This document shows, one piece after another, positions 5,272 through 24,166 of a DNA stretch of 64,000 nucleotides. The position numbers were made by a program, and so were the translations under genes. The stretch covers positions 372,001 through 436,000 of the forward strand of contig NZ_VLLE01000006.1 of the NCBI RefSeq assembly GCF_007830055.1. Reading direction: 5' to 3'. Below the pieces are notes generated by a model, which saw only the letters and a program-made list of their open reading frames with translations, had not been told where the DNA came from and made no database searches. Positions within the stretch are counted from its first letter, which is position 1. Each line of letters opens with the position of its first letter. This DNA is from Lacibacter cauensis (lineage in GTDB: Bacteria > Bacteroidota > Bacteroidia > Chitinophagales > Chitinophagaceae).

Positions 5272-5368
5272 GTAAGCTACTTGCAATTATTTACAATAAA
5301 AATGATTGACATCACAGAATTCTTTGATTCAACTCATCGTAAACAGCCTGCAGAATAGAGTTTCTTTG
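5272..5368. promoter_or_regulatory. Divergent promoter with tandem CRP/FNR-like boxes (baeRF and polX)
   Basis: Boxes TGATTGACATCA (5303-5314) and TGATTCAACTCA (5325-5336) have centres exactly 22 bp apart. Leftward, a -7-like element TAGCTTAC (reverse strand, 5279 to 5272) starts 29.5 bp from the nearer box centre. Rightward, TTTCTTTG (5361-5368) starts 30.5 bp from its nearer box centre. Both genes can therefore be driven from the same two boxes. Seen directly; binding by a CRP/FNR-type regulator is inference from family knowledge. Confidence 0.75.
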
Positions 5369-5376
5369 TTGAATAC

Positions 5377-6396
5377 ATGTTACATCCTGCACATAACCTG
5401 CAACTCGCAGCCATCTTTCACAGCATGGCCGATTGTTACAACTACCTTGGCAAGGAAGAGCGGTTTCGTGCCCTTGCGTATGAAAACGCAGCCAAAATGC
5501 TCTACAACATGCCCGAAGATGTAGCAGTGTACAACAACATTGCCAAGCTCGATGAACTGCAGGGCGTAGGTGAAAGTATTGCTGAAAAGATTCTTGAATT
5601 TTTACAGACAGGAACCATTAAAACTTATGAGCAGCTGAAAAAGAAAGTACCGTTTGCATTGCTGGAACTGATGAACATCACAGGTTTTGGTCCGGCAACT
5701 TTACGAACTTTACATAAGCAGCTGCACATTGGCACACTCGAAGAATTAGCAGAAGCACTGCAGCAAAACAGGTTACAGCATTTGAAAGGTTTCGGGTCAA
5801 AAAAAATCAGCAATATGCTGCGGGCCTTAAAACTGGAAAAAGAAGATCGTCAACGACTTCCTTTAGCTGAAGCCGAGCAAATTGCAAATAAACTTGTTGA
5901 ACAAGTGCGCAGCATACCGGGTGTACAACGTGCAGAACTGGCAGGCAGTTTGCGAAGAAGAAAAGAAACGATCGGCGATATTGACCTGGTTATAACAACA
6001 GATGCAAAAGACAGGAAAAAAATTGTACGCAAATTGATTGCATTGCCGGGTATCGAAAAAGTGATTGCTGCAGGAACTACCAAGATCAGTATTGTGTTGG
6101 CGCCGAAGCATATACAGGTTGATGCAAGGATTGTAAGGGATGACGAGTTTGGAGCAGCGATGCTTTATTTTACCGGATCGAAAGAACATAACATTCAGCT
6201 GCGCAGCATTGCCAGAGAACGTGGATTAAAAATTAACGAGTACGGCATTTTTACCAAGCAAGGCAAACGGGTAGCCGGCGCAACCGAACAAGAAATGTAC
6301 AATTACCTGGGCTTACATTATATACCACCCGAACAACGAGTTAATCAAGGCGAAATTGAACGGGCTAAACAATTGTCCAATGGAGCTACATATTAA
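5377..6396 (+). CDS. Family X DNA polymerase without PHP domain
   Basis: This 339-residue protein carries the polymerase half of bacterial PolX: an N-terminal 8-kDa-type helix-hairpin-helix region (LDELQGVGESIAEKI), a second HhH (LKGFGSKKISNML), then the nucleotidyltransferase core GSLRRRKETIGDIDLVI with metal-binding aspartates D201, D203 and D249, and the thumb segment FTGSKEHNIQLR. It ends right after YIPPEQRVNQGEIERA, where typical PolX (about 570 residues) continues into a PHP exonuclease. The 98 nt that follow encode no PHP, so it is a polymerase-only form. Role: gap-filling in base-excision or end-joining repair (family knowledge). The leader is predicted to be only a few nucleotides. 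Confidence 0.88.
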   Translation: MLHPAHNLQLAAIFHSMADCYNYLGKEERFRALAYENAAKMLYNMPEDVAVYNNIAKLDELQGVGESIAEKILEFLQTGTIKTYEQLKKKVPFALLELMNITGFGPATLRTLHKQLHIGTLEELAEALQQNRLQHLKGFGSKKISNMLRALKLEKEDRQRLPLAEAEQIANKLVEQVRSIPGVQRAELAGSLRRRKETIGDIDLVITTDAKDRKKIVRKLIALPGIEKVIAAGTTKISIVLAPKHIQVDARIVRDDEFGAAMLYFTGSKEHNIQLRSIARERGLKINEYGIFTKQGKRVAGATEQEMYNYLGLHYIPPEQRVNQGEIERAKQLSNGATY

Positions 6397-6407
6397 ATAA
6401 AAAATGC

Positions 6408-6475
6408 TGCTGACTGGAATCAGCAAATACGCTGTTGCGGGTCATAAACTGTAGCAGCAAACAACCTCATCTTTA
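6408..6475 (+). promoter_or_regulatory. CRP/FNR-like promoter of the universal stress protein gene
   Basis: A perfect palindrome TGCTGACTGGAATCAGCA (6408-6425, core TGA-N6-TCA, centre 6416.5) is followed 22 bp on by a degenerate box TGTTGCGGGTCA (6433-6444). A -7-like CATCTTTA starts at 6468, 29.5 bp from the second centre and 51.5 from the first. The geometry equals that of the other island promoters, though the proximal box and the -7 each deviate by one base. Confidence 0.6.
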
Positions 6476-6494
6476 ACAAACAAAATCATTCGTT

Positions 6495-7316
6495 ATGAAA
6501 AAGATTTTGCTGGCTTTCGACGGCACTCATTTTTCGAACGGAGCATTTGAATTTGCCCGCTGGCTGAATGAGATAGAGCCTGTACTGGTTACCGGCGCTT
6601 TCTTACCACAAGCACAGGCAGCAAATATGTGGAGTTATGCCGATGGTATGAGTGGCCCCATGTTTGTTCCGCTGGTGGAAGAACGTGATACCGAAGTAAT
6701 GAAGGCGAATATTTCAAAATTCGAAACCCTTTGTCAAAAACACAATATTGAATACCGTGTTCACGAAGACACGTTTGATTTTGCTTTACCTGAGCTTAAA
6801 GCAGAAACCAGGTTTGCCGATGTGTTGATTATAGGCAGTGAAGTGTTTTATGAAAAACTGAGTGGTAAGCTCAACGATTATCTGCACGATGTTTTACACA
6901 AATCGGAGTGCCCGGTAATTGTGGTTCCGGAAAACTATGAATTTCCAAAAACCAATGTTCTTTGTTACGATGGCAGCGATTCGAGTGTATATGCCATTAA
7001 GCAGTTTGCCTACCTCTTCCCCGATCTGGCGAAGAAACCAACACTGCTGGTGTACATACACAAAGATGGCACAAACGATCTTCCACAACAGGTAAACATC
7101 GAAGAGCTCACTGCAAGACACTTCAGTGATCTTACATTGATGAAACTGGATATGAGTGCCGACAGGTACTTCAGCACGTGGATGAACAACCGGGATGCAG
7201 CCATGCTGGTTGCCGGAAGTTTTGGCCGCTCTGCCCTCTCGGAACTTGTAAGAAAGAGCATGGTGAAAGATGTTATTACCGAGCATAAGCTTCCGGTATT
7301 TATTGCACACAGATAA
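6495..7316 (+). CDS. Universal stress protein, tandem UspA domains
   Basis: This 273-residue cytoplasmic protein has two Usp domains (about 1-143 and 150-273), starting MKKILLAFDGTHFSNGAFEF and ending in the Usp beta-strand LPVFIAHR. The first domain ends at KSECPVIVVPENYEFP. The second holds GSFGRSALSELVRKS, a variant of the nucleotide-binding loop G-x2-G-x9-G(S/T), so ATP binding cannot be assumed. Tandem Usp proteins are commonly induced by starvation, redox or low oxygen. It appears monocistronic: a strong terminator lies 35 bases after its stop and a CRP/FNR-like promoter lies upstream. Confidence 0.92.
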   Translation: MKKILLAFDGTHFSNGAFEFARWLNEIEPVLVTGAFLPQAQAANMWSYADGMSGPMFVPLVEERDTEVMKANISKFETLCQKHNIEYRVHEDTFDFALPELKAETRFADVLIIGSEVFYEKLSGKLNDYLHDVLHKSECPVIVVPENYEFPKTNVLCYDGSDSSVYAIKQFAYLFPDLAKKPTLLVYIHKDGTNDLPQQVNIEELTARHFSDLTLMKLDMSADRYFSTWMNNRDAAMLVAGSFGRSALSELVRKSMVKDVITEHKLPVFIAHR

Positions 7317-7350
7317 CACAGATAGATAGCAATTTGGTTGGTGATTGTTC

Positions 7351-7381: not shown

Positions 7382-7424
7382 ATGTTGATGATCAGTATTT
7401 GCCACAACCTGAATCAGTATCGTT

Positions 7425-7469
7425 TGTGACAAACTTCACACAGACTGGATTTTCTGCTCTATAGTTTTA
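7425..7469 (+). promoter_or_regulatory. Consensus CRP-type box and -7 element of the DUF2892 gene
   Basis: TGTGACAAACTTCACA (7425-7440, centre 7432.5) is a perfect TGTGA-N6-TCACA site, the best single box in the set. The -7-like TAGTTTTA begins at 7462, 29.5 bp from the box centre. A right half-site TCA (7414-7416) lies where the distal box would be, 22 bp upstream, but the left half (CAA) is missing. The predicted leader is about 18 nt. Confidence 0.78.
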
Positions 7470-7491
7470 CTGAAATAAAAAACAGAAGTAT

Positions 7492-10584: not shown

Positions 10585-10680
10585 TAAATCTACTTTTACC
10601 TTTTCCGGCTGTTGCTGATGAGCATCAATTGCTCTGTTGACACATCTCATAGCAAAATGCAGTTCTAAATAATACATTTA
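10585..10680. promoter_or_regulatory. Divergent promoter with tandem boxes (PPOX A and thioredoxin)
   Basis: Boxes TGATGAGCATCA (10616-10627) and TGACACATCTCA (10638-10649) have centres 22 bp apart (10621.5, 10643.5). On the reverse strand TAGATTTA (10592 to 10585) starts 29.5 bp from the nearer centre. On the forward strand TACATTTA (10673-10680) starts 29.5 bp from the other. The geometry is exactly mirror-symmetric. The first box extends to CTGATGAGCATCAA, one mismatch from the E. coli FNR consensus. Confidence 0.8.
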
Positions 10681-10684
10681 GTGT

Positions 10685-10984
10685 ATGAATAATTTCGAAT
10701 CACATATATACGGCAGCAAGCCGGTGGTTGTTGATTTTTTTGCAGAGTGGTGTGGGCCCTGCAAGTTGATGACTCCCGTACTGCAACAGGTGAAAGATGC
10801 GGCAGGCGACCGTATAACTGTTTTGAAAATGGATATCGATAAGAATCCCGGTTTTACTCATCGCTATGGAGTACAGGCAGTACCAACGCTTATGATTTTT
10901 AAAGACGGACAAGTCATCTGGCGTAAAAGCGGCGTGGTACCTGCACACGAAATATTACAATACCTCAATACAGTGATGAGCTGA
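10685..10984 (+). CDS. trxA: Thioredoxin
   Basis: A 99-residue cytoplasmic disulfide reductase with the active site WCGPC at 22-26 and the cis-proline motif AVPTLMIF. The length is slightly short for thioredoxin (about 105). Asp17 occupies the buried-aspartate position of classic thioredoxins. The ATG lies only 5 nt after the -7-like element, so the transcript is predicted to be leaderless or nearly so. A strong terminator follows the gene, so it is monocistronic. It is probably one of several thioredoxins, this one tied to the low-oxygen regulon (inference). Confidence 0.92.
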   Translation: MNNFESHIYGSKPVVVDFFAEWCGPCKLMTPVLQQVKDAAGDRITVLKMDIDKNPGFTHRYGVQAVPTLMIFKDGQVIWRKSGVVPAHEILQYLNTVMS

Positions 10985-12721: not shown

Positions 12722-12724
12722 CTA

Positions 12725-12789
12725 TGAGCAGCATCAAAACCGGTAATGACACCTATCATTACAAAACAACAAAAGGCTGAATAACTTTA
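12725..12789 (+). promoter_or_regulatory. CRP/FNR-like tandem-box promoter of PPOX B
   Basis: Boxes TGAGCAGCATCA (12725-12736) and TGACACCTATCA (12747-12758, inside the 20-base palindrome-like GTAATGA-N6-TCATTAC) have centres 22 bp apart. The -7-like TAACTTTA starts at 12782, 29.5 bp from the proximal centre. The distal box begins just 4 bases after the nptA-like stop codon. Confidence 0.8.
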
Positions 12790-12811: not shown

Positions 12812-13261
12812 ATGCTTGGTATACTCAGTAAAACAGAGATCGAGGAACTGCTGTACAGCAGTTCCCTCGGTCGTATTGGTTGCAGCTACAATGGTAAAAC
12901 CTATGTAGTGCCGGTTAATTATATTTACGATGGCCGCAGTGTAATAGCACATTCAACAGAAGGATTGAAGATCCAGATCATGCGCAAGAATCCATCGGTT
13001 TGTTTTGAAGTAGACGCTGTAAGCAATAATAAAAACTGGCAAAGCGTCATTGCACAAGGTACTTACATGGAACTTACCGGCGAACGTGAACGGTACGATG
13101 CCATGAAACTGTTTGTTGACCGTATGCTGAAATTAAAAATCAGTACTACTGCACATCCACCCGAACTGGAACCTGAACGCACACACAACAGCGGTTCTGC
13201 CAAACCGGTTATTTACCGCATTCTCCTTACAGAAAAAACGGGGCGTTACGAAAAAGAATAG
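12812..13261 (+). CDS. PPOX-family FMN-binding protein (paralogue B)
   Basis: A 149-residue split-barrel flavoprotein, paralogous along its whole length to the protein encoded at 10097-10546 (shared MLG start, VGR/LGR, VPVNYIYDG, RKNPSVCFEVD, NWQSVIAQG, EKTGRYEK end). The conserved cysteine in VCFEVD is present in both. The substrate is unknown; it is probably an FMN-dependent reductase or a haem/flavin-binding stress protein. It is transcribed alone from its own tandem-box promoter. Confidence 0.88.
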   Translation: MLGILSKTEIEELLYSSSLGRIGCSYNGKTYVVPVNYIYDGRSVIAHSTEGLKIQIMRKNPSVCFEVDAVSNNKNWQSVIAQGTYMELTGERERYDAMKLFVDRMLKLKISTTAHPPELEPERTHNSGSAKPVIYRILLTEKTGRYEKE

Positions 13262-13281
13262 TCCAACTTCATTGATCTGCA

Positions 13282-13324
13282 TGATGCTCATCATTGCAAA
13301 CAGCTTTTGTAAACAGTAACTTAG
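13282..13324 (+). promoter_or_regulatory. CRP/FNR-like promoter of the YtxH operon
   Basis: Box TGATGCTCATCA (13282-13293, centre 13287.5) lies 29.5 bp before the -7-like TAACTTAG (13317-13324). At the distal position, 22 bp upstream, only the right half TCA (13269-13271) is present. The predicted leader is about 35 nt. Confidence 0.68.
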
Positions 13325-14386: not shown

Positions 14387-14452
14387 TGACCTCAATCACA
14401 GCATTCGTTGATGTTTGTTCTTGAAAAAAGCGTTGCTGTAAACGTATCTTCA
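14387..14452 (+). promoter_or_regulatory. CRP/FNR-like promoter of hsp20
   Basis: Distal box TGACCTCAATCA (14387-14398, centre 14392.5) is complete. The proximal box TGATGTTTGTTC (14409-14420), 22 bp on, keeps only the left half well. The -7-like TATCTTCA starts at 14445, 30.5 bp from the proximal centre. This is the weakest of the set but in register. The rest of 14246-14495 shows no gene. Confidence 0.5.
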
Positions 14453-14483: not shown

Positions 14484-14490
14484 AAGGAGG
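14484..14490 (+). promoter_or_regulatory. Strong Shine-Dalgarno sequence before hsp20
   Basis: AAGGAGG lies 5 nt before the ATG at 14496. A near-perfect anti-16S match is unusual in Bacteroidota, whose genes (including the neighbours here) mostly lack one. It decides the start in favour of the ATG over a GTG at 14490. Confidence 0.75.
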
Positions 14491-14495
14491 TGTAT

Positions 14496-14942
14496 ATGTC
14501 AACAAGAGCTATTACAAAACCTGGCATGTTACCAACAATGTTCGATGATTTTTTTAAACCCTGGAACGAATGGTTCGACAACAGCAGTTCTTTCCTCGGC
14601 CGCACTATGACAATGCCTGCTGTAAACATTGTTGAGAACAAAGAGGACTACATGGTATCTCTTGCTGTACCCGGAATGAAAAAAGATGATTTCAATATTG
14701 ATGTTGAAGGCAACATGCTCACCATCAGCAGCGAAAAAGAAGAAAGCAAAGAAGAAAAAGAAGATAAGTACACCCGTAAGGAATACAACTATTCTTCTTT
14801 CAGCCGCAGTTTTACTTTACCAGATGAAGTAAACAAAGAAAAAATTGAAGCGAAATACGAAGATGGTGTGTTGAAACTGATGCTTCCTAAAAAAGAGGAA
14901 GCGAAGAAGCTCGCAGCGGGCAAACATATCGCTGTAAAATAA
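14496..14942 (+). CDS. Hsp20 / alpha-crystallin small heat-shock protein
   Basis: This protein of about 148 residues has a short N-terminal arm (TMFDDFFKPWNEWF), an alpha-crystallin domain from about 45 to 140 (MPAVNIVENKEDYMVSLAVPG; LTISSEKEE; YEDGVLKLMLPKKEE) and a C-terminal HIAVK tail in place of a clear I-x-I/V motif. It is an ATP-independent holdase for unfolding proteins in the cytoplasm. It is monocistronic with its own terminator. In other bacteria alpha-crystallin genes are hallmark members of hypoxia regulons (family knowledge), which fits its CRP/FNR-like box. Confidence 0.93.
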   Translation: MSTRAITKPGMLPTMFDDFFKPWNEWFDNSSSFLGRTMTMPAVNIVENKEDYMVSLAVPGMKKDDFNIDVEGNMLTISSEKEESKEEKEDKYTRKEYNYSSFSRSFTLPDEVNKEKIEAKYEDGVLKLMLPKKEEAKKLAAGKHIAVK

Positions 14943-15011: not shown

Positions 15012-15076
15012 TGAGCATCGTCAGTTTATTTTCTGATGATGGTCAGAAAGCAGCAAACGGGTCATTTCTAATTTGC
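15012..15076 (+). promoter_or_regulatory. CRP/FNR-like tandem-box promoter of ccoI
   Basis: Boxes TGAGCATCGTCA (15012-15023) and TGATGATGGTCA (15034-15045, in the palindrome TTCTGA-N6-TCAGAA) have centres 22 bp apart. The -7-like TAATTTGC starts at 15069, 29.5 bp from the proximal centre. The ATG at 15085 follows closely, so the leader would be very short. Confidence 0.75.
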
Positions 15077-15084
15077 AGCCTGTT

Positions 15085-17481
15085 ATGAGTACGAGTGTTC
15101 AACCAACCGTTCAATGCTATCACTGCGGTGAAGATTGTGTAACCGAAACCATTCAGCTGGCCGATAAAACGTTCTGCTGCCACGGTTGCAAAACCGTTTA
15201 CCAGGTGCTGAACCAGAGCGACCTGTGCAACTACTACGAACTCAACAAAAACCCCGGCACCACACAACGCATCACCGTCCGCAAAGACAAGTTCTCTTTC
15301 CTCGACGACGAAAAAATTCAACAGCAGATTGTATCCTTCCGCAACGAAGAGCAAACACATGTAACGTTTTATCTGCCGCAAATCCATTGCAGCTCCTGTT
15401 TGTGGCTGCTGGAAAACCTGCACCGGTTAAACAGTGATGTTGTTTCATCGAGAGTAAACTTTACCCGTAAGGAAGTTGAAATTGTGTTCAACCATAACCG
15501 CACTTCATTACGTACTGTTGCCGAGCTGTTAACCAGTATCGGTTACGAACCCTACATCAGCTTACAAAATCTGCAGCAGGCAAAACCACGCATCCAACGC
15601 AGTTTAATTTATCAACTCGGTGTGGCTGGTTTTTGTTTTGCCAACATCATGCTCATGAGCTTTCCCGAATACCTCGGACTCGAAGAAGCTGAAAAGAGCA
15701 TGCAGTACCTGTTTCGTTATTTCAATCTGATTTTATCGCTGCCTGTGCTGCTGTACAGCTCGCTTCCGTTTTACCAAAGTGCATGGGGCAGTTTAAAACA
15801 CAAGTACCTCAATATTGATGCGCCGATTGCATTGGCCATCATCATGACCTTTGGCCGCAGCTTATACGAAGTGCTGAGCAACACCGGTAGTGGCTATTTC
15901 GATTCCATGAGCGGCATTGTGTTCTTTATGCTGGTGGGTCGTGTGCTGCAGGAAAAAACCTATCAGCAACTTTCGTTCGAGCGGGATTACACTTCTTATT
16001 TTCCCATTGCAGTAACCGTTATCAAAGACAACAAAGAAACTCCTACTGCCTTGCCCGATATCAAAGTAGGCGATACCATTCTCATCCACAACGAAGAACT
16101 GATTCCGATTGATGGATTACTTACCAAAGGCAAAGCGTTGATCGATTATAGTTTTGTTACCGGCGAATCCTTACCTGTGCTGAAGGAAATGGGCGAACTG
16201 TTGTATGCAGGTGGAAAACAAACCGGCAGCAATATTGAATTGCTGGTAATGAAAGAAGTGGCGCAGAGCTATTTAACCCGTCTCTGGAACAACGATGATC
16301 AGCAAAAAACAGTCAAGGTTTCGTTTGTAGATGCGCTGAGCCGCTACTTTACCTGGATTGTTTTTGCACTGGCTGCAGCGGGTGCCTTGTACTGGAGCTT
16401 CTACGATGGAGGCCGTGCATGGAATGTGGTAACCACCATTTTAATTGTAGCTTGTCCTTGTGCATTGTTGCTAAGCAACAGTTTTACCAATGGCAATGTG
16501 TTACGCATACTCGGCAATAACAAATTCTACTTGCGTAATGCACAAACCATTGAAGAAATTGCCGATGCCAACCATATCGTATTCGATAAAACAGGTACGC
16601 TTACCACAACTGAAGCACAGGATATTTTATTTTCAGGCGAACCCTTCAGTGACGAGATAGCAGGCAGCATTGCTGCATTAGCTGCACAAAGCACACACCC
16701 GTTAAGTAAACTGCTGGCAAAAGAGTTTAAGCAAAACGGTGTGTTCGACGTAAAGCAATACAGGGAAACTACCGGCAAAGGCATCAGCGGTATTGTTAAC
16801 CAGCGCATCATTACTATGGGCTCTGCCGAATTTGTAACCGGCTATGCTTCGCAAAAATTTGAAGGCAGCATCGTGTATGTTTCGGTTGATGGCAGCCTGC
16901 TTGGCTACTTCAGCATACGCAATCATTATCGTACACACATTTTCGATCAGATAAATAAACTACGTAAGCAATACCGCATTTCCATTCTTTCGGGCGATAA
17001 TGAAAGCGAACGGTTAAACCTGCAGAAAGAATTGGGTATGGATGTGAAGTTGTTCTTTAACCAGCAACCACACGATAAACTCAACTATATCCGGGAGTTG
17101 CAGCAAAAAGGTCAGAAAGTGATTATGATTGGTGATGGCCTGAACGATGCCGGTGCCTTGAAACAAGCCGATGCGGGTATTGCCGTAACCGAAAGCACTA
17201 ACAATTTTACACCTGCCAGCGATGGTATATTGGAAGCTACACAACTCAGCCGGCTTACTGCTTATTTGAAGTTTACCAAAGCCAACAAACGTGTGGTATT
17301 GGCCAGCTTTGTACTTTCTATTTTGTACAATGTTATTGGTTTAAGCTTTGCGTTGAAAGGAGCTTTATCGCCCATGATCGCAGCTATTTTAATGCCTTCC
17401 AGCTCGCTCAGTATTATCTTGCTCACCTTCGGCGCTTCTTCGTTGTATGCTCGTTTGATTGGAATGGGAAGAAAGAAGTGA
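15085..17481 (+). CDS. ccoI: Copper-type P1B ATPase for cbb3 oxidase assembly (CcoI)
   Basis: This 798-residue heavy-metal P-type ATPase has an N-terminal treble-clef metal-binding domain (CYHCGEDC and CCHGCKTVYQ), then an HMA-like region with CSSCLWLLENL, eight membrane helices, the CPC metal-transport motif at 457-459, the phosphorylation loop DKTGTLT from D501, the HP motif THPLS and GDGLNDAGAL. This layout is that of CcoI/FixI, which delivers copper to the cbb3 oxidase. An upstream TTG (15073) would add four residues and overlaps the -7 element, so the ATG is preferred. The cbb3 genes follow after 270 nt. Confidence 0.93.
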   Translation: MSTSVQPTVQCYHCGEDCVTETIQLADKTFCCHGCKTVYQVLNQSDLCNYYELNKNPGTTQRITVRKDKFSFLDDEKIQQQIVSFRNEEQTHVTFYLPQIHCSSCLWLLENLHRLNSDVVSSRVNFTRKEVEIVFNHNRTSLRTVAELLTSIGYEPYISLQNLQQAKPRIQRSLIYQLGVAGFCFANIMLMSFPEYLGLEEAEKSMQYLFRYFNLILSLPVLLYSSLPFYQSAWGSLKHKYLNIDAPIALAIIMTFGRSLYEVLSNTGSGYFDSMSGIVFFMLVGRVLQEKTYQQLSFERDYTSYFPIAVTVIKDNKETPTALPDIKVGDTILIHNEELIPIDGLLTKGKALIDYSFVTGESLPVLKEMGELLYAGGKQTGSNIELLVMKEVAQSYLTRLWNNDDQQKTVKVSFVDALSRYFTWIVFALAAAGALYWSFYDGGRAWNVVTTILIVACPCALLLSNSFTNGNVLRILGNNKFYLRNAQTIEEIADANHIVFDKTGTLTTTEAQDILFSGEPFSDEIAGSIAALAAQSTHPLSKLLAKEFKQNGVFDVKQYRETTGKGISGIVNQRIITMGSAEFVTGYASQKFEGSIVYVSVDGSLLGYFSIRNHYRTHIFDQINKLRKQYRISILSGDNESERLNLQKELGMDVKLFFNQQPHDKLNYIRELQQKGQKVIMIGDGLNDAGALKQADAGIAVTESTNNFTPASDGILEATQLSRLTAYLKFTKANKRVVLASFVLSILYNVIGLSFALKGALSPMIAAILMPSSSLSIILLTFGASSLYARLIGMGRKK

Positions 17482-17555
17482 TGAGTGAGTGGTGGTGAGT
17501 GGTGGTGAGTGGTGGTGAGTGGTGGTGAGTGGTGAATAGTGAATAGTGAATAGGG
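17481..17555 (+). repeat. Tandem decamer repeat GGTGGTGAGT with GTGAATA tail
   Basis: Four perfect copies of GGTGGTGAGT at 17491-17530 directly follow the ccoI stop. Then come GGTGAATAGT and GAATAGTGAATAG. The copies are identical, so the array is recent or prone to slippage. It is not a CRISPR: there are no spacers. GTGAATA-type runs recur at about 55746-55775 and 55828-55856. Confidence 0.85.
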
Positions 17556-17647
17556 AGTATCTGCACTTTCGGTCTTCTAACTTCTGGTCTCGAATCTTTC
17601 AGACTTTCCGTCTTCCGGTCTTCCCACCTTCCATTTTAAATTTTTCC

Positions 17648-17732
17648 TGACCATGATCACCGGAGTTTGACAAGAGTCAATGATTTATCTGATTTGCGTC
17701 ATCTCTCACTACGTACCCTCCCGATAGTTTTA
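17648..17732 (+). promoter_or_regulatory. Triple CRP/FNR-like box promoter of the cbb3 oxidase operon
   Basis: Three boxes are present: TGACCATGATCA (17648-17659), TGACAAGAGTCA (17668-17679, in the perfect palindrome TTGACAAGAGTCAA) and TGATTTGCGTCA (17690-17701). The last two are 22 bp apart, the first two 20 bp. The -7-like TAGTTTTA starts at 17725, 29.5 bp from the last centre; TAGTTTTAC is identical to the DUF2892 promoter element. The leader before ccoS is about 15 nt. Confidence 0.8.
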
Positions 17733-17751
17733 CAGCCGAAAATAATCTTTT

Positions 17752-17940
17752 ATGAGTGTCATCTTCCTGTTGCTTATCGCCAGCGTATCTGTGGCTGCCC
17801 TTTTTTTGGGAGCATTTTTGTGGAGTGTGAAAAGTGGTCAGTACGACGATGAAACATCTCCACCTATGCGTATGCTGTTCGATCCGCCGCCGCCTTCTTC
17901 CTCCGGCACTTCAAGCGAAACCAATTCAACCCAACAATAA
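17752..17940 (+). CDS. ccoS: CcoS, cbb3 oxidase maturation protein
   Basis: A 62-residue protein with one N-terminal membrane helix (about 2-25) followed by FLWSVKSGQYDDETSPPMRMLFD. The GQYDD motif is diagnostic of CcoS, needed for cofactor insertion into the cbb3 catalytic subunit. The C-terminal tail is proline- and serine-rich. It is the first gene of the ccoS-NO-Q-P-G-H operon, 20 nt before ccoNO, behind the triple-box promoter. Confidence 0.93.
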   Translation: MSVIFLLLIASVSVAALFLGAFLWSVKSGQYDDETSPPMRMLFDPPPPSSSGTSSETNSTQQ

Positions 17941-17960
17941 ACAACAGACAAATTGAAATT

Positions 17961-20093
17961 ATGCAAACCGAAAAGTTTTATTACGACAACAAGATTGTAA
18001 AATACTTTGCCAATGCCACAGCGCTTTGGGGAGTAGTAGGTATGATTGTAGGTTTGTGGGTTGCCATCCAGTTTTATTTACCTGCTTCATCGCTCGATTA
18101 TGCAGGTACAACGTTTGGCCGCCTTCGTCCCATTCACACCAATGCCGTCATCTTTGCTTTTGTTGGCAACTGCATGTTTACCGGCATTTATTATTCGTTG
18201 CAGCGTCTTTGTAAATCAAGGATGTTCAGCGATACCTTAAGCTGGATCCATTTCTGGGGCTGGCAATCCATTATTGTTGCAGCTGCACTTACCTTATTCT
18301 TCGGTTTTACAACCGGTAAAGAATATGCAGAACTGGAATGGCCCATCGACATCATGATCACACTCATTTGGGTGGTGTTTGGTGTTAACATGTTTGGTAC
18401 CATCTTCAAAAGAAGAGAAAGTCACCTGTATGTTGCCATCTGGTTTTACATTGCTACCTGGATCACCGTTGCAATGTTGCACATTGTTAACTCGTTCGAA
18501 ATGCCCGTATCGCTGTTTAAAAGTTACAGCTGGTATGCAGGTGTGCAGGATGCGTTGGTACAATGGTGGTATGGTCACAATGCCGTTGCTTTCTTCTTAA
18601 CTACTCCTATTCTCGGTTTAATGTATTACTTCCTGCCAAAAGCAGCGAACCGTCCTGTTTATTCGTATCGTTTATCCATCATTCACTTCTGGGCACTCAT
18701 TTTCATTTACATCTGGGCTGGCCCGCACCACTTATTATATACAGCGTTACCCGATTGGGCACAATCGCTGGGTGTGGTGTTTAGTGTAATGTTGATTGCA
18801 CCAAGTTGGGGTGGTATGTTGAATGGTTTGTTTACACTGCGTGGTGCGTGGGATAAAGTGCGTGAAGAACCGGTGTTGAAATTTTTTGTAGTAGCTGTTA
18901 CCTGTTATGGTATGAGCACGTTTGAAGGACCGATGTTGAGTTTGAAAAGTGTAAATGCTATTGCACACTTTACCGATTGGATTATCGGGCACGTACACAT
19001 TGGTGGTTTAGGCTGGAATGGTTTTATGGCCTTTGGTATGCTGTACTGGCTGGTACCAAAAATGTGGGGCACTACTTTGTATTCAAAGAAACTTGCAACC
19101 AACCACTTCTGGTTGGGTACAATCGGTATCGTTATTTATGCTATTCCTTTATACTGGGCAGGTTTTGCACAAGCCGAAATGTGGAAGACGTTTACCGAAT
19201 CAGGTCAGTTAAAATTCCAGTTCCTGGAAACTGTTACCAACATCATACCCATGTACATTACACGTAGTGTAGGTGGTACACTGTACCTCATTGGCGCATT
19301 TATGATGGTGTATAATTTAATTAAAACAGCGAAGCAAGGTACGTTCATTGCAAATGAAGAAGCAGAAGCTGCTCCACTTGCCAAACACGAATCGCATGTA
19401 AAAGAATACTGGCACCGCTGGATTGAAAGAAAGCCTGCCACCTTATTAGTGTTCAGTTTAATTGTTGTAGCAATTGGTGGTATACTTGAAATTGTACCTA
19501 CATTCCTTATTAAATCGAACGTACCAACAATTACAAGCGTTAAGCCGTACACTCCGCTGGAACTGCAGGGTCGTGATATTTACATCCGTGAAGGTTGTTA
19601 TACCTGTCACTCACAAATGATCCGTCCGTTCCGTGATGAGGTTGCACGTTACGGCGAGTATTCAAAAGCAGGTGAATTTATTTACGATCATCCATTCCAA
19701 TGGGGCAGTAAACGTACAGGTCCGGATCTGGCACGTGAAGGTGGAAAATATCCCGACAGCTGGCATTACAACCACATGATGGACCCCCGCAGTATGTCGC
19801 CCGGTTCTATTATGCCAAACTATCCCTGGTTATTAGATAACGATCTGGATACGGCATCAACACCTGCAAAAATCAGGGCGATGCAAAAGCTGGGTGTTCC
19901 TTACGCAGAAGGTTTCGATGCAAAAGCAAACAAAGATTTAATGACACAGGCCAATGGTATCCGCATCAGTTTAAAGATGGATAAAATTGAAACGCCTGCC
20001 AACAAGGAAATCATCGCATTGATTGCTTACCTGCAGCGTTTGGGCAAGGATATTAAAGCAGAAAAGAAAACAGAAACTGCTGCCTCTAATTAA
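17961..20093 (+). CDS. ccoNO: Fused CcoN-CcoO, cbb3 cytochrome oxidase catalytic and haem-c subunits
   Basis: This 710-residue fusion has CcoN at about 1-480: twelve or more membrane helices with the haem and copper histidine segments THAVIFAFVGNCM-like (about 53), QWWYGHNAVAFFLT and HFTDWIIGHVHIG. A linker and one helix precede the CcoO part (about 500-710), which has one c-type haem site C546-YT-C549-H550 followed by SQMIRPF. Separate genes are usual in Proteobacteria; the fusion is common in Bacteroidota. It reduces oxygen to water with high affinity and pumps protons, for growth at low oxygen. Confidence 0.95.
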   Translation: MQTEKFYYDNKIVKYFANATALWGVVGMIVGLWVAIQFYLPASSLDYAGTTFGRLRPIHTNAVIFAFVGNCMFTGIYYSLQRLCKSRMFSDTLSWIHFWGWQSIIVAAALTLFFGFTTGKEYAELEWPIDIMITLIWVVFGVNMFGTIFKRRESHLYVAIWFYIATWITVAMLHIVNSFEMPVSLFKSYSWYAGVQDALVQWWYGHNAVAFFLTTPILGLMYYFLPKAANRPVYSYRLSIIHFWALIFIYIWAGPHHLLYTALPDWAQSLGVVFSVMLIAPSWGGMLNGLFTLRGAWDKVREEPVLKFFVVAVTCYGMSTFEGPMLSLKSVNAIAHFTDWIIGHVHIGGLGWNGFMAFGMLYWLVPKMWGTTLYSKKLATNHFWLGTIGIVIYAIPLYWAGFAQAEMWKTFTESGQLKFQFLETVTNIIPMYITRSVGGTLYLIGAFMMVYNLIKTAKQGTFIANEEAEAAPLAKHESHVKEYWHRWIERKPATLLVFSLIVVAIGGILEIVPTFLIKSNVPTITSVKPYTPLELQGRDIYIREGCYTCHSQMIRPFRDEVARYGEYSKAGEFIYDHPFQWGSKRTGPDLAREGGKYPDSWHYNHMMDPRSMSPGSIMPNYPWLLDNDLDTASTPAKIRAMQKLGVPYAEGFDAKANKDLMTQANGIRISLKMDKIETPANKEIIALIAYLQRLGKDIKAEKKTETAASN

Positions 20094-20099
20094 TCAACC

Positions 20100-20123
20100 G
20101 GAGCGGAACCCCGGTTCCGCTCC
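20100..20123 (+). other. Intercistronic hairpin between ccoNO and ccoQ
   Basis: A perfect 10-bp GC-rich stem GGAGCGGAAC / GTTCCGCTCC with a CCCG loop lies 6 nt after the ccoNO stop. No U-tract follows (TTAAAAT), so it is more likely an mRNA-stabilising or attenuating structure than a full terminator. It could set ccoNO mRNA above ccoP/ccoG mRNA (inference). Confidence 0.7.
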
Positions 20124-20137
20124 TTAAAATATCTGTC

Positions 20138-20296
20138 ATGAAATTTATACACTACCTCGAAAAGATCAGCAACGTAAGCATATATGGCTTAAGCTCGTTT
20201 CTCATCTTCTTCATCTTCTTCTGCGCTGTTTTCATTTATGTTATCAGTGCAAAGAAGAGTGATATGAATGAACAAAGTCGTATTCCATTGGACTAA
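20138..20296 (+). CDS. CcoQ-like small membrane subunit
   Basis: A short 52-residue frame, MKFIHYLEKISNVSIYGL... ending SRIPLD, with one membrane helix (about 18-41, rich in Phe/Ile) and a charged C-terminus with KKSDMNEQ. Position between ccoNO and ccoP, size and topology match CcoQ (FixQ), which stabilises the cbb3 complex. Sequence similarity of CcoQ proteins is weak, so the name rests on context. It starts 44 nt after ccoNO and ends 18 nt before ccoP. Confidence 0.75.
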   Translation: MKFIHYLEKISNVSIYGLSSFLIFFIFFCAVFIYVISAKKSDMNEQSRIPLD

Positions 20297-20314
20297 CTTT
20301 TAAAACAACGAACC

Positions 20315-21493
20315 ATGTTCACATACAAAAAACATTTTCTTTCATCGTTCTTACGCAAATTGTACATAGCTGCACCGCTGTTATTGCTGGGTACAGCAGC
20401 AACGGCACAGCAAACAGGAGGAGCACCCGCCCCTTCCATCTGGGATAATGCACTGGCGTTAACCATGCTCATCATCAGCCTGGTATTATTGCTGGTAATT
20501 GCATTACTCGCCAACGTGGTATTAGGTACTGCCAAACTTCATTTCGATAAACAAAAGAAAAGTGACAGTGCAACAAAAATTGTTGCTGTACTGCTTTTGT
20601 TTTTAGCACCTTCTCTGCTGCATGCACAGGATGCAGCAACCGATGCAGCTGCTGCAGCACCATCATCCATTGGTGGTTTAACACCGCTTACCTTTTGGGT
20701 ACTGGCAGGTGTGATTGCAGTTGAGTTGCTGGTTATTCTTGTAATGGGATTGTTTGTAAAACGTTTCCTTGCAAAAGAAAAAATTGCCATTGCTGCCGAA
20801 GCAGGTATTGCTGCTGAAGCAAAACCATCGGGCTTTAAAGTGTGGTGGGATAAGCTCAACAGCTTTAAACCAATGGAAAAAGAAGCAGACATCGATCTTG
20901 GTCACAACTACGATGGTATCCGTGAACTGGATAACCGTTTACCCCCATGGTGGTTGTATGGCTTTTATGTAACCATCATTATTGGTGCAATTTATTTATG
21001 GCGTTACCACATTTCTGAAACAGCTCCGTTGAGCAAACAGGAATTTGAAATTGCCATGAAAAAAGCGGATGAAGAAAAAGCCGCTTACCTCGCAAAATCG
21101 GCAAACAACGTTGACGAAAACACCGTTACAATTTTAAAAGAACCTGCTGCACTCGATGCGGGCAAAGCAACCTTTGTACAAATGTGTGCAGCCTGCCACG
21201 GTAAAGCCGGCGAAGGTGGTGTTGGACCCAATCTTACAGACGATTACTGGATCCATGGCGGCAGTATTAAAGATGTATTTAAAACCATTAAATACGGCTG
21301 GCCCGAAAAAGGGATGAAAGCATGGCAGGATGATTTTTCACCTGTACAGATTGCGCAGATCGCCAGCTATATTAAATCCCTGCACGGCACTAACCCTCCA
21401 AATGCAAAAGAAAAACAAGGCGATTTGTATAAAGAAGATGGTGCAGCACCTGCAGCAGACAGTACTGCAAAAAAAGATGTAGTTATTAAGTGA
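20315..21493 (+). CDS. ccoP: CcoP-type cytochrome c subunit of cbb3 oxidase
   Basis: A 392-residue protein with one c-type haem site C291-AA-C294-H295 (MCAACHGKAGEGG) in its C-terminal cytochrome domain. A CcoP membrane segment (RLPPWWLYGFYVTIIIGAIYLW) sits at about 212-230. Proteobacterial CcoP has two haems; one is usual in Bacteroidota. The first 155 residues are odd: a signal-like segment plus helix (15-32, 46-69) is repeated as a second signal-like segment plus helix (89-105 ending LLHAQD, 124-149). It accepts electrons from periplasmic donors and passes them to CcoNO. Confidence 0.9.
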   Translation: MFTYKKHFLSSFLRKLYIAAPLLLLGTAATAQQTGGAPAPSIWDNALALTMLIISLVLLLVIALLANVVLGTAKLHFDKQKKSDSATKIVAVLLLFLAPSLLHAQDAATDAAAAAPSSIGGLTPLTFWVLAGVIAVELLVILVMGLFVKRFLAKEKIAIAAEAGIAAEAKPSGFKVWWDKLNSFKPMEKEADIDLGHNYDGIRELDNRLPPWWLYGFYVTIIIGAIYLWRYHISETAPLSKQEFEIAMKKADEEKAAYLAKSANNVDENTVTILKEPAALDAGKATFVQMCAACHGKAGEGGVGPNLTDDYWIHGGSIKDVFKTIKYGWPEKGMKAWQDDFSPVQIAQIASYIKSLHGTNPPNAKEKQGDLYKEDGAAPAADSTAKKDVVIK

Positions 21494-21511
21494 TGTTGAA
21501 TTGATGATACT

Positions 21512-22930
21512 ATGAACAACGAAGAAAATATACAACAGGAACAAAAAAAGGAATCTTTCCGTGACCGGATTGCAACAGTTGATGCACAGGGAAAACGCAA
21601 ATGGATCTTTGCGCAAAAACCGAAAGGAAAGTTTTACAATATCCGCACATATGTAAGCTTTTTCTTCTTCCTCATTTTTGTAACCCTTCCGTTTATTCAC
21701 GTAAACGGAAGGCCCCTGTTTATGTTTAATATACCGCAGGCGAAATTCATCATCTTCGGTAAAGTGTTCTGGCCGCAGGACTTTTTCATCTTCGGTATTA
21801 TCATGATCACGTTTATCGTGTTCATTGTATTGTTTACAGCAGCATTCGGTCGATTGTTCTGCGGTTGGGTTTGTCCGCAAACCATTTTTATGGAAATGCT
21901 GTTCCGCAAACTGGAATATGCCATTGAAGGCGATGCAGCCAAACAAAAACTGATGGCTGCGGGCCCTTGGACCAGCGAAAAAATTGCACGCAAGGCTACC
22001 AAGCACATTGTGTTTTACCTGTTGGCATTCATTATTGCCAACTTTTTCCTGGCATATATTATTGGTGTAAAAGAGTTGTGGGCCATGATGCATCATCCGG
22101 CCGACAATGTGGGCAACATTGCCGCATTGATGGTTTTCTCTGCTGTATTTTATGCGGTGTATGCGTTCTTTCGTGAACAGGCTTGTACCGTTGTTTGTCC
22201 TTATGGCCGTTTACAAGGTGTGTTGCTCGATAAAAACTCCATGATTGTTGCTTACGATTACAAACGTGGCGAAGAGCGCAAAAAAATTAACAAGAGTGAA
22301 GAACGCACAGCAGGCGATTGTATCGACTGTCATCAATGCGTGAAAGTTTGTCCTACCGGTATCGATATCCGCAACGGTACACAAATGGAATGTGTAGGTT
22401 GTACAGCCTGCATCGATGCCTGCGATCATATGATGGAAAGTGTAGGCTTTAAAAAAGGATTGATTCGTTATGCCAGCGAAAACGGTATTGCCAATCATGA
22501 AAAGCTGCACTACACACGCCGTATGAAAATGTATACCGGCTTGTTGATTGTTTTAACCGGCTTACTGACTACTCTCCTGCTTTCGCAGAAAGATGTAAAA
22601 GCAACCGTAATGCGTACACCAGGGTTATTGTTCCAGGAAAAAGGAACAGACAGTATTTCAAACCTGTACAACATTAAGATCGTTAACAAAACCATGAACG
22701 ATATTCCGTTAACTGTTAAGCTTGAAGACCACAACGGAACAATTCAACAGGTAGGTAATACCATTCATGTAAAGAAAGAAGGACAAGGTGCAGGATCATT
22801 CTTCATCATCCTTCCCAAGGAGCAAATTAAACAACGTAAAACAGTAGTACATGTAAGCTTGTACGAAGGCGATAAAAAAATCACCACTGTGAAAACAAAT
22901 TTTCTCGGACCCATTTCATCAACCAATTAA
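21512..22930 (+). CDS. ccoG: CcoG, cbb3 oxidase assembly iron-sulfur protein
   Basis: This 472-residue membrane protein has the CcoG/RdxA layout: five membrane helices, CGWVCPQT and CTVVCPYGR motifs, a double 4Fe-4S ferredoxin domain (CIDCHQCVKVCP and CVGCTACIDACD) and a C-terminal Ig-like FixG_C domain from about 365. CcoG reduces copper(II) to copper(I) for cbb3 assembly (family knowledge). It starts 18 nt after ccoP and ends 11 nt before ccoH. Confidence 0.94.
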   Translation: MNNEENIQQEQKKESFRDRIATVDAQGKRKWIFAQKPKGKFYNIRTYVSFFFFLIFVTLPFIHVNGRPLFMFNIPQAKFIIFGKVFWPQDFFIFGIIMITFIVFIVLFTAAFGRLFCGWVCPQTIFMEMLFRKLEYAIEGDAAKQKLMAAGPWTSEKIARKATKHIVFYLLAFIIANFFLAYIIGVKELWAMMHHPADNVGNIAALMVFSAVFYAVYAFFREQACTVVCPYGRLQGVLLDKNSMIVAYDYKRGEERKKINKSEERTAGDCIDCHQCVKVCPTGIDIRNGTQMECVGCTACIDACDHMMESVGFKKGLIRYASENGIANHEKLHYTRRMKMYTGLLIVLTGLLTTLLLSQKDVKATVMRTPGLLFQEKGTDSISNLYNIKIVNKTMNDIPLTVKLEDHNGTIQQVGNTIHVKKEGQGAGSFFIILPKEQIKQRKTVVHVSLYEGDKKITTVKTNFLGPISSTN

Positions 22931-22941
22931 AACAATGCACT

Positions 22942-23385
22942 ATGACACTTAACTGGGGACATAAAGTAACACTGGGCTTTAGTGCTTTTGTACTATTCAT
23001 GTTTTTTATGGTGTACAAAAGCGTGCATACCGATTTTCAACTGGTATCGAAAGAATATTACAAAGATGAGCTTGCCTATCAGCAGGTAATTGATGGCACC
23101 AATCGTGCCAACGCATTAAGTACAACAGTAAGTGTGGCACAAAGCAACGAAGCCATTACCATTCAGCTGCCCGAAGAAATGAAAGGCAAAAAAATAAGCG
23201 GTAACATCTGGCTTTACTGTCCAACCAATGACAAGCTGGATCAGCGGTTAACCTTTACCGCCGATGCAGCTGCCCGCTACCAGCTAAACAGGAAAAGTGT
23301 TGCAGCGGGCAACTATGTAGTTAAAATTAACTGGACAGCAGATGGTACTGCATTTTACAACGAACAACCTTTTACAGTAAAATGA
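22942..23385 (+). CDS. ccoH: CcoH / FixH family protein
   Basis: A 147-residue protein with one N-terminal membrane helix (about 8-28) and a periplasmic beta-sandwich. YYKDELAYQQVIDGTNRA after the helix is the typical FixH motif. It is needed for stable cbb3 assembly with CcoI and CcoG. Its stop overlaps the start of the TauE/SafE gene (ATGA), indicating coupled translation. Confidence 0.9.
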   Translation: MTLNWGHKVTLGFSAFVLFMFFMVYKSVHTDFQLVSKEYYKDELAYQQVIDGTNRANALSTTVSVAQSNEAITIQLPEEMKGKKISGNIWLYCPTNDKLDQRLTFTADAAARYQLNRKSVAAGNYVVKINWTADGTAFYNEQPFTVK

Positions 23386-24089
23386 TGCTCGAAGCAATAA
23401 CAGGAGGTTTGCTGCTGGGCGCATTCAGCAGTTTGCATTGCATAGGCATGTGCGGACCGCTGGCTCTTGCGTTACCGGTACAGCATTTACCTGTTTGGCA
23501 GCAACGTTTTGCAGCCATTATGCATAACCTTGGCCGTATTGTTACGTACGCATTGTTTGGTTTATTATTTGGCTTTGCAGGACGTGGTTTGCAACTGGCC
23601 GGTTTTCAGCAGTGGCTATCCATCATCAGCGGTGCAGTTATTTTATTTTTTATCGTGAACTACTACCTGTTACGTAAAAGCTGGCAACCTGCATTTACAG
23701 TAAAACTAAATCAAGCCGTACAGCAACTGATGATTCGCCTGCTGAATAATAAAACCGCTAAAACCTATTTACTGTTTGGCATGGTCAACGGATTACTTCC
23801 TTGTGGTATGGTGTACGTTGCGCTTGCAGCGGCACTCAATTTCCGGGAAGTAGAAAACAGTGTTGTGTTCATGAGCAGCTTCGGAGCAGGTACTGTACCG
23901 TTATTATTACTGTTAACGGTGTTGGGGCACAGCGTTTCATTTTCGTTACGCAGTAAGATAAGAAAAGCCGTTCCGTACATTATGACGGTTATGGCTGTAC
24001 TGTTGATTTTACGTGGTTTAAACCTGGGTATTCCGTTTATAAGTCCTGTTTTGGCAGGCGCAACAGCTGCTCCGGTACAATGTCATTAA
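23382..24089 (+). CDS. Sulfite exporter TauE/SafE-like membrane protein (COG2836)
   Basis: A 235-residue membrane protein with about six helices. FSSLHCIGMCGPLALALP near the N-terminus and GMVNGLLPCGMVYVAL in the middle are the paired Cys motifs of the COG2836 branch, which is regularly encoded with cbb3 and copper ATPase genes. A role in copper or thiol handling during oxidase assembly is suggested; sulfite export is unproven for this branch. It is the last gene of the cco operon. Confidence 0.87.
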   Translation: MMLEAITGGLLLGAFSSLHCIGMCGPLALALPVQHLPVWQQRFAAIMHNLGRIVTYALFGLLFGFAGRGLQLAGFQQWLSIISGAVILFFIVNYYLLRKSWQPAFTVKLNQAVQQLMIRLLNNKTAKTYLLFGMVNGLLPCGMVYVALAAALNFREVENSVVFMSSFGAGTVPLLLLLTVLGHSVSFSLRSKIRKAVPYIMTVMAVLLILRGLNLGIPFISPVLAGATAAPVQCH

Positions 24090-24101
24090 AAAAGGTACAA
24101 G

Positions 24102-24166
24102 TGATGAGGATCATTAACGCTATTGACAACTGTTATAGAGAACCGCTGAGGCAAAATGTAGATTTG
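24102..24166 (+). promoter_or_regulatory. CRP/FNR-like tandem-box promoter of the coiled-coil gene
   Basis: Boxes TGATGAGGATCA (24102-24113) and TGACAACTGTTA (24124-24135, one base off) have centres 22 bp apart. The -7 element TAGATTTG (24159-24166) is a perfect TAnnTTTG and starts 29.5 bp from the proximal centre. Confidence 0.78.

Follow-up and report, generated by a model that had tools for sequence, protein, structure and literature searches.

Which protein reads the phased DNA boxes that precede a run of respiration and stress genes in Lacibacter cauensis, and what do these boxes control? The window analysed here is a stretch of 64,000 nucleotides (nt), G000:C5:372001-436000, from a genome (G000) of 4.95 Mb in 10 contigs (C1, C2, C5 and C6 below are contigs of this genome). 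It contains twelve promoters in which TGA-N6-TCA boxes stand in fixed register with a -7 element of the form TAnnTTT. Sequence comparison indicates that the boxes are most likely read by a regulator encoded alongside, in which a receiver domain is joined to a CRP half (REC-CRP, 24752-25807 on the minus strand). Altogether, we consider it probable that they are operators from which this protein, under an oxygen-linked kinase, would activate a microaerobic and dormancy programme in the manner of a class II activator.

Re-measuring the sequence upheld the geometry given in the first-pass annotation. Ten box pairs serve the twelve promoters, two pairs being common to divergent genes (5303-5336 for polX and baeRF, 10616-10649 for trx and PPOX A). 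In ten promoters (baeRF, Usp, DUF2892, PPOX A, trx, PPOX B, YtxH, ccoI, ccoS and coiled-coil), the centre of the proximal box lies 29.5 base pairs (bp) ahead of the first T of the -7 element, which is the 24th nt past the box; for polX and hsp20 the spacing is 30.5 bp and this T is the 25th nt. Ten of the twelve have a perfect distal box (two mismatches each in DUF2892 and YtxH), and nine a perfect proximal box (one mismatch each in Usp and coiled-coil, two in hsp20). Half of the -7 elements match TAnnTTT perfectly (6/12), and one of the five defined letters is off in polX (TTTCTTTG), Usp (CATCTTTA), hsp20 (TATCTTCA), baeRF (TAGCTTAC), YtxH (TAACTTAG) and ccoI (TAATTTGC). Starts 12 nt past the first T of the -7 would leave trx leaderless (10673-10685), and polX (5361-5377) and ccoI (15069-15085) almost so.

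This arrangement is not what shuffled DNA yields. When up to two box mismatches and one -7 mismatch are allowed, 14 tandem plus -7 matches are found in the window, where 200 dinucleotide shuffles give 0.395 on average and never more than 3; exact pairs number 5, with a shuffle mean of 0.005. Two of these 14 matches read the ccoS and hsp20 pairs in reverse, and no gene can be assigned to them. Single boxes are weakly enriched in the window (30 vs a mean of 21.2, with 4 of 100 shuffles reaching 30), and a genome-wide scan for a single box plus -7 (up to one mismatch) was rejected as a regulon finder, with 93 matches vs 73 in the control. Since the box alone and the single box with its -7 barely exceed the controls, the signal is the phased pair plus its register. 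These slight single-box excesses are what could be said for an artefact of chance or of composition in AT-rich intergenic DNA, an idea to which we give next to no weight in view of the shuffles, the reversed patterns, the control palindromes, the spacing spectrum and the footprint; the phased tandem-box observation itself is confirmed.

Over the whole genome, the exact pattern TGA-N6-TCA-N10-TGA-N6-TCA occurs seven times and its reversed control not once. All seven pairs fall within 63 kb (C5:326724-389701), and the compact island of 5.3-24.2 kb drawn in the first-pass annotation was too narrow, as the cluster extends upstream to C5:326724, 45 kb ahead of the window. The two exact pairs outside the window precede an MlaE-type permease (C5:364783) and a protein that is YceI-like by Pfam (C5:326724); the YceI site has three boxes in 22-bp steps, the third with one mismatch, followed by the -7 element AATATTTG. 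By eye, the sister genome G083 has both sites in syntenic position, and with them the triple array. With up to one mismatch overall in pair plus -7, the genome gives 11 matches, nine of them on C5 at 364783-396165. One of the other two, C1:106529, is a dispersed candidate site outside the cluster, ahead of an uncharacterised protein of 133 amino acids (aa); the other, C2:128400, lies almost on a start codon and its status is undecided. A weak tandem candidate with one perfect and one two-mismatch box, readable on both strands, is located 4 kb ahead of the window (L010:15862-15895, G000:C5 about 367862).

Comparison with G083, which belongs to the same genus and has a REC-CRP 93% identical to that of the window, reveals a footprint. 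(Over its best segment, the window REC-CRP also shares 99% identity with its counterpart in Lacibacter luteus (Chitinophagaceae, Bacteroidota).) Across the twelve promoters, box letters are 94% identical (135/144) and -7 letters 93% (56/60), vs 55% (144/264) for box interiors and inter-box letters and 61% (170/278) for the spacer to the -7; the two divergent pairs enter these figures twice, and counted once they give 111/120 for boxes and 117/220 for interior and inter-box letters. The DUF2892 site is not conserved in G083, with 9/12 box letters kept and both halves of the proximal box altered. In the relatives L113-L115, where some promoters only could be compared, boxes are 79-88% identical vs 38-54% for interior and inter-box letters; -7 letters range over 64-95% and are clearly set apart only in L115, poor alignments being part of the reason. 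L112 is so similar that it tells little (boxes 98%, interior and inter-box letters 90%, -7 100%, spacer 76%).

The same spacing recurs beyond the genus. In 39 REC-CRP neighbourhoods outside it (764 kb), 44 exact box pairs are found at the 10-bp gap and at most two at each other gap from 0 to 60, and six control palindromes (96-298 occurrences vs 440 boxes) give no pair at the 10-bp gap. From the 88 tandem ends (44 pairs, both readings), TAnnTTT lies at offset 23 in 20 cases, at offset 24 in two and at any other offset in at most two; from single boxes it peaks at 23 (16) and at 45 (32), and since 45 is 23 plus 22, the second peak looks as if the proximal box had decayed. A broader sample of 125 sources (the window, four flanking stretches and 120 stretches of relatives, with some genomes represented more than once), scanned for a pair plus -7 at offsets 23 and 24 only, returned 312 matches, 297 of them distinct (266 at 23 and 31 at 24), vs 11, 20, 16 and 5 for four control palindromes. 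Across 98 whole genomes of the family, finally, exact pairs number 540 vs 11 for the reversed pattern.

The logo of these sites reads TGAY-N4-RTCA for both boxes and TAntTTTG for the -7, with a weakly conserved base before each TGA. A third box 22 bp above the distal one is present at 15 of 296 sites (other offsets have 0 to 10, with 10 at 44 and 46), and no AT-rich UP-like element that might account for the tandem was seen above the distal box, where AT content is 0.58-0.65 throughout. Past the proximal box, one T is conserved (0.77) and there is no clear -33 TTTG consensus. A protein at -41.5 could block polymerase, and position alone is no proof of activation; that the boxes are repressor sites is nonetheless highly improbable in our judgement, because the -7 offset is sharply peaked and the -33 consensus is missing, both of which fit activator-dependent promoters.

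The candidate activator, REC-CRP, belongs to the CRP/FNR superfamily by its PF00027 (E 5.2e-23) and PF13545 (E 2e-14) domains. Its receiver has the residues of a response regulator: D9, D52 and K104 are kept in 105/105 aligned rows, as are E or D at position 8 and T or S at position 82. In the recognition helix, E316 and R320 (E-x3-R) are likewise invariant (105/105). In E. coli CRP and FNR, the helix E and R read the GA of TGA, and the outer base is read by R180 (CRP) or S212 (FNR); the REC-CRP counterparts of these outer-base readers, which we take to be T315 and I319, fit a box without a strong outer base. The N-terminal cysteine cluster of FNR is absent, the only Cys of the window protein being residue 51, within the receiver. 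Presumably, the cAMP-binding Arg-Ser of E. coli CRP (82-83) corresponds to K220-E221, as aligned by eye; position 220 is K in 43/105 rows and position 221 E or D in 102/105. Among the 60 best of 330 Protein Data Bank (PDB) sequence matches, none has a best stretch that spans both halves of the protein.

Sites and regulator also vary together. Helix residue 315 (T at 164 sites, K at 33) covaries with half-site base -1, the one it would be expected to contact (p 1.4e-5): sites with K have less C (0.13 vs 0.29 with T) and more purines (0.76 vs 0.53), and the other five flanking positions show p of at least 0.065. The association persists when loci are permuted as units (p 0.0002), and the drop in C holds inside and outside Chitinophaga (K loci 10 and 13, T loci 6 and 62). 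Among the 98 family genomes (97 genera), the mean number of exact pairs is 6.98 in the 64 with REC-CRP only, 6.88 in the 8 with REC-CRP and an FNR-like protein bearing a cysteine cluster, 3.25 in the 8 with the FNR-like protein only and 0.67 in the 18 with neither (the 72 REC-CRP calls include one, that of G078, truncated to a fragment where a contig ends). Across 198 genomes of the phylum, the pair plus -7 motif is found in 23/32 genomes with REC-CRP vs 21/166 without, and the reversed control gives 9 matches in all 198. Thus spacing statistics, the G083 footprint, upstream enrichment (below), co-occurrence with REC-CRP and residue-base covariation all support the CRP/FNR-type regulon with class II register that had been proposed.

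One family, f5, departs from the tandem form. The REC-CRP neighbourhoods of nine of its genomes lack any 10-bp pair, and TAnnTTT lies at offset 23 from 38 of their 234 boxes (counted on both strands), with at most 4 at any other offset. Over whole genomes, the single box plus -7 occurs 300 times vs 33 for the control in 11 f5 genomes with REC-CRP, and 90 vs 27 in 7 without. We considered f5 as a contradiction of REC-CRP as reader and rejected this: the 10-bp pair is missing, yet single boxes stand in register. As f5 keeps the register with one box, the proximal box seems to be the general element, and its distal partner an addition made in other lineages.

The likely partner of REC-CRP is a sensor kinase with a PAS domain, a homologue of which adjoins REC-CRP on the same strand in 96/104 loci, upstream in 87. 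The best PDB match of the window PAS domain is the FixL heme PAS (1d06, E 5.3e-15), with DosP among the next. Kinase His66 is aligned, by sequence position only, with the FixL histidine that we take to be the proximal heme ligand, and non-heme PAS domains may carry a His here too; across 96 rows the position is His in 81, gapped in 14 and Asn in one. The distal arginine of FixL, which lies in its GIGR motif, falls at a variable position (M 37, R 21 and L 19 of the 96 rows). With the His kept in most rows, heme binding by the kinase PAS is plausible.

Which genes follow the sites was asked in two ways. By rule, 290 of the 297 sites have a downstream open reading frame (ORF), and 143 of these 290 match a window protein: coiled-coil 33, ccoNO 26, Hsp20 20, ccoI 16, kinase 16, Usp 13, baeRF 7, PPOX 7 and five others with one each. 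These counts are to be read with two biases: small first genes (ccoS, DUF2892, trx) are under-counted because the rule picks the longest nearby ORF, and neighbours of REC-CRP are favoured because all stretches were chosen for holding REC-CRP. The remaining 147 sites cluster into another Usp (22), two families of no known function (12 and 11), cytochrome c (6), an Rrf2 regulator (5) and many singletons; taken together, Usp proteins account for 35 sites. In the second approach, the motif was sought within 350 bp upstream of target homologues in 104 unique REC-CRP loci. It precedes Hsp20 in 19/24 cases, ccoNO in 20/26, ccoS in 19/25, baeRF in 5/6, DUF2892 in 5/6, YtxH in 2/2, Usp in 12/20, PPOX A in 3/5, PPOX B in 1/3, ccoI in 13/25 and the coiled-coil gene in 19/41. 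As background, it stands upstream of 0/98 distal genes of cco operons and in 141/6000 random windows.

Several observations weigh against REC-CRP and its kinase as the controlling pair. In the same loci the motif precedes 0/104 REC-CRP genes and only 9/93 kinase genes (within 350 bp), so there is no autoregulation of this form. The homologues of trx (0/2), YdjM (0/3) and PLD (0/3) lack it as well, and no PolX homologue was contained in the 104 loci. In the phylum, the 21 genomes with a match and without REC-CRP include 17 with a single match; nine REC-CRP genomes, all of f5, have no tandem plus -7 site, and the f5 per-genome single-site counts overlap (12-58 with REC-CRP vs 9-20 without). The K/T split at residue 315 is partly phylogenetic, and permuting loci keeps the shared ancestry of the K loci. 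On the kinase side, 14 rows are gapped at the PAS histidine and the window protein has Leu86 in place of the FixL distal arginine. Finally, many sites occur without REC-CRP (8 in G066, 6 in G087 and 5 in G080), and because such genomes exist, another protein can read the boxes.

A candidate for such a second reader is an iron-sulphur FNR or another CRP/FNR protein, which would make REC-CRP a mere neighbour of the boxes. G066, G087, G031 and G080, which have sites and no REC-CRP, all encode an FNR-like protein that combines a CxxC-N8-C cluster with a helix, GTATES/T-x-IR, like that of REC-CRP; in G087 its gene lies directly upstream of ccoI, and ccoI and ccoS/NO carry tandem boxes in the same register. 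Throughout the 98 family genomes, a protein at least 57% identical to one of these four is found in 16, and 14 of the 16 have the cysteine cluster by pattern. Against this stands the window genome: its best match to the FNR-like query, at 42% identity, lacks cysteine and has a GTARENVIR helix, a second CRP/FNR protein has the helix GTTYESLFR, and two weak CRP-half matches (C6:197081 and C2:1113471) were left unread. The higher pair count of genomes with REC-CRP only (6.98 vs 3.25 with the cysteine protein only) speaks the same way, and we hold it unlikely that a protein other than REC-CRP is the reader in the window.

Two related ideas were dropped or weakened. That tandem boxes need the REC domain is made less likely by the tandem sites in genomes that have the cysteine FNR and no REC-CRP. 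That sensors were swapped repeatedly through gene fusions was set aside: a tree of CRP halves keeps the 54 sampled REC-CRP rows apart from the FNR-like group (0.987); support for the REC node itself is 0.0, and a single origin of the REC-CRP fusion appears compatible with the tree without being proven by it.

With REC-CRP kept as the preferred reader, its signal could still be something other than oxygen: the same operator and regulator might answer to redox state, nitric oxide, carbon monoxide, growth arrest or another stress acting on the kinase. The Leu at the FixL distal-arginine place, in a position that varies among the homologues, and the general stress character of the Hsp20, Usp and hibernation genes would suit such a signal. 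Against it, no named target group is larger than that of the cbb3 genes (26 ccoNO and 16 ccoI sites of 297), and the oxygen sensors FixL and DosP are among the best PAS matches, which leaves a non-oxygen signal as a serious but rather doubtful alternative. Coordinates of the promoters and genes are collected in Table 1.

Table 1. Promoters and main genes of the window, with box and -7 positions; G083 fractions are box letters kept in the sister genome
Feature	Position	Strand	Details
baeRF promoter	5272..5336	-	distal box 5325-5336, proximal 5303-5314, -7 TAGCTTAC 5279-5272; G083 12/12
polX promoter	5303..5368	+	boxes 5303-5314, 5325-5336 (pair common with baeRF), -7 TTTCTTTG 5361-5368, 30.5 bp
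Usp promoter	6411..6475	+	boxes 6411-6422, 6433-6444 (1 mismatch), -7 CATCTTTA 6468-6475; G083 10/12, gapped alignment
DUF2892 (YgaP-like transmembrane) promoter	7405..7469	+	degenerate distal 7405-7416, proximal 7427-7438, -7 TAGTTTTA 7462-7469
PPOX A promoter	10585..10649	-	boxes 10638-10649, 10616-10627, -7 TAGATTTA 10592-10585
Thioredoxin (trx) promoter	10616..10680	+	boxes 10616-10627, 10638-10649, -7 TACATTTA 10673-10680
PPOX B promoter	12725..12789	+	boxes 12725-12736, 12747-12758, -7 TAACTTTA 12782-12789
YtxH-like promoter	13260..13324	+	degenerate distal 13260-13271, proximal 13282-13293, -7 TAACTTAG 13317-13324
Hsp20 promoter	14387..14452	+	distal 14387-14398, proximal 14409-14420 (2 mismatches), -7 TATCTTCA 14445-14452, 30.5 bp
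ccoI (P-type ATPase) promoter	15012..15076	+	boxes 15012-15023, 15034-15045, -7 TAATTTGC 15069-15076; G083 12/12
ccoS/ccoNO promoter	17648..17732	+	boxes 17668-17679, 17690-17701, extra box 17648-17659, -7 TAGTTTTA 17725-17732; G083 12/12
Coiled-coil protein promoter	24102..24166	+	boxes 24102-24113, 24124-24135 (1 mismatch), -7 TAGATTTG 24159-24166
baeRF family 3 protein	4155..5252	-	Pfam PF18845; heads same-strand run
Universal stress protein (Usp)	6495..7316	+	PF00582
Hsp20 small heat-shock protein	14490..14942	+	PF00011
cbb3 oxidase genes: ccoI, ccoS, ccoNO fusion, ccoP, ccoG, ccoH, DsbD_2-like	15073..24089	+	Pfam, reading
Coiled-coil protein, no known function	24174..24599	+	131-141 aa by start chosen; no Pfam match; top single window family, 33/297 sites
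REC-CRP regulator, proposed reader of boxes	24752..25807	-	Pfam Response_reg, cNMP_binding and HTH_Crp_2; 351 aa
Sensor histidine kinase	25822..27048	-	PAS-HisKA-HATPase by Pfam; upstream of REC-CRP, same strand

Within the gene set, the baeRF protein deserves separate mention. It heads a run with a LolA-like protein (PF17131) followed, by reading only, by two FtsX-like proteins and a LolD-like ATPase. It matches the NCBIfam model NF052287 ('AOC03_06830 family ribosome hibernation factor') with E 3.2e-59 and 201.2 bits over residues 13-365, under the 330-bit cutoff of this model. AOC03_06830 is presumably the Balon gene, and the window protein appears to be a distant relative of this ribosome-hibernation factor, a relative and not to be equated with Balon itself. 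In the Balon paper, the tag AOC03_06830 occurs once, Balon genes are reported beside Hsp20 genes, and the mycobacterial Balon homologue Rv2629 is described as hypoxia-induced (PMC10901736). On this evidence, the statement that genes of the regulon were never linked before was too strong for baeRF, Balon genes being placed near Hsp20 genes and in hypoxia contexts by the same text (PMC10901736). In the window, too, the surroundings of baeRF include Hsp20 and stress genes.

Homologues of the coiled-coil protein (e.g. L112:11202-11624:-) are convergent with and adjoin the REC-CRP gene in many relative loci. Compared by hhalign with six coiled-coil proteins behind f5 sites, the window protein gives a probability of 93% (E 2.8e-7, 11% identity), which is a lead only because of coiled-coil bias. 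Two further families of no known function recur. One, of about 134 aa, lies behind tandem sites at 11 sites in 11 loci (L093:8930-9334:+), where the L093 member has no Pfam or NCBIfam match and is related to the protein downstream of C1:106529 (L290:1609-2010:-) at 25% identity and E 5e-16. The other (L135:11443-12135:-) accounts for 12 sites in 12 loci and has no Pfam match. Within the stress regulon, the PolX-type polymerase (5377-6396, 339 aa) has no PHP-domain match. Among the cbb3 genes, ccoN and ccoO form a single 710-aa fusion protein (17961-20093, COX1 plus FixO domains), and a short GTGAGTGGTG-like tandem run stands at 17482-17535, past the ccoI stop codon.

Several known systems share parts of this design. 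The rhizobial FixL-FixJ-FixK cascade (and hFixL-FxkR-FixK) with FnrN has in common with it a heme-PAS-like kinase, a receiver domain and a CRP/FNR activator, an anaerobox, TTGAT-N4-ATCAA, of the TGA-N6-TCA type, and fixNOQP/fixGHIS (cco) targets, and its FixK and the cysteine FNR FnrN divide labour on anaeroboxes in a way that resembles REC-CRP and the cysteine FNR on one box (PMC7888657). By the convention of that paper, activating anaeroboxes lie at -32 to -34 (PMC7888657). The Fix cascade differs in that a separate receiver regulator induces a separate fixK, whereas here there is one 351-aa protein and the intermediate transcription step is missing; unlike rhizobial anaeroboxes, the boxes here are mostly in tandem, 22 bp apart, and have no fixed outer T. 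With E. coli CRP/FNR class II promoters, the sites share a box centre predicted to lie about 41.5 bp before the start, the TGA...TCA core and the E-x3-R helix; they differ by the Bacteroidota -7 TAnnTTTG, by having no strongly conserved outer TG or T and no FNR cysteines, and, in tandem sites, by the second box directly behind at 22 bp.

In mycobacteria, the dormancy regulon of DosS/DosT-DosR is a two-component low-oxygen system that governs Hsp20, Usp, flavin/PPOX-type proteins and also a ribosome-hibernation factor. The content here is DosR-like (Hsp20, Usp, PPOX and a ribosome-hibernation-factor relative), and no homology between the systems is claimed: DosR is a NarL-type response regulator with a different operator, whereas the output here is of the CRP/FNR type. 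The programme looks DosR-like in function and wired like a shortened Fix cascade. Among the matches listed in a literature search, we found no paper on a low-oxygen regulator of Chitinophagaceae-type Bacteroidota and, by title or start of abstract, none that deals, for Bacteroidota, with a REC-CRP regulator or with tandem operators at 22 bp.

The mechanism that we propose runs as follows. As oxygen falls, the kinase, with a PAS domain that resembles the heme PAS of FixL, would phosphorylate the receiver domain of REC-CRP. A dimer of the regulator would then bind TGAY-N4-RTCA centred 29.5 bp ahead of the -7, i.e. at about -41.5, where, in the register observed, it would replace the -33 contact and recruit RNA polymerase as a class II activator. 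A second dimer 22 bp further upstream, two helical turns away and on the same face, may raise occupancy or add a contact. The targets would make up a microaerobic respiration and dormancy programme comprising the cbb3 oxidase and its assembly genes, Hsp20, Usp, PPOX and thioredoxin, and further the Balon-related protein, the PHP-less PolX, lipid-transport genes and the coiled-coil protein.

A bolder version is possible, and we offer it tentatively: in Bacteroidota, the FixL-FixJ-FixK relay might have collapsed into a kinase and REC-CRP, with phosphorylation-driven arrays of dimers every 22 bp (two, sometimes three) setting a sharp low-oxygen switch to a DosR-like dormancy with ribosome hibernation. 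The operators would have been kept while the sensor was exchanged, with the phosphorelay protein REC-CRP in most of the sampled genera and, in others, an iron-sulphur FNR that has the same recognition helix, so that one operator code would answer to two unrelated oxygen sensors.

For this family of bacteria, a candidate regulator, its kinase, its operator and its gene set are now directly testable. A ribosome-hibernation-factor relative and several proteins of no known function are tied to respiration genes, and the coiled-coil family, which follows more of the sites than any other single window family (33/297), becomes a clear target. The genomes themselves offer a natural experiment, in which one operator is seemingly served by two kinds of sensor.

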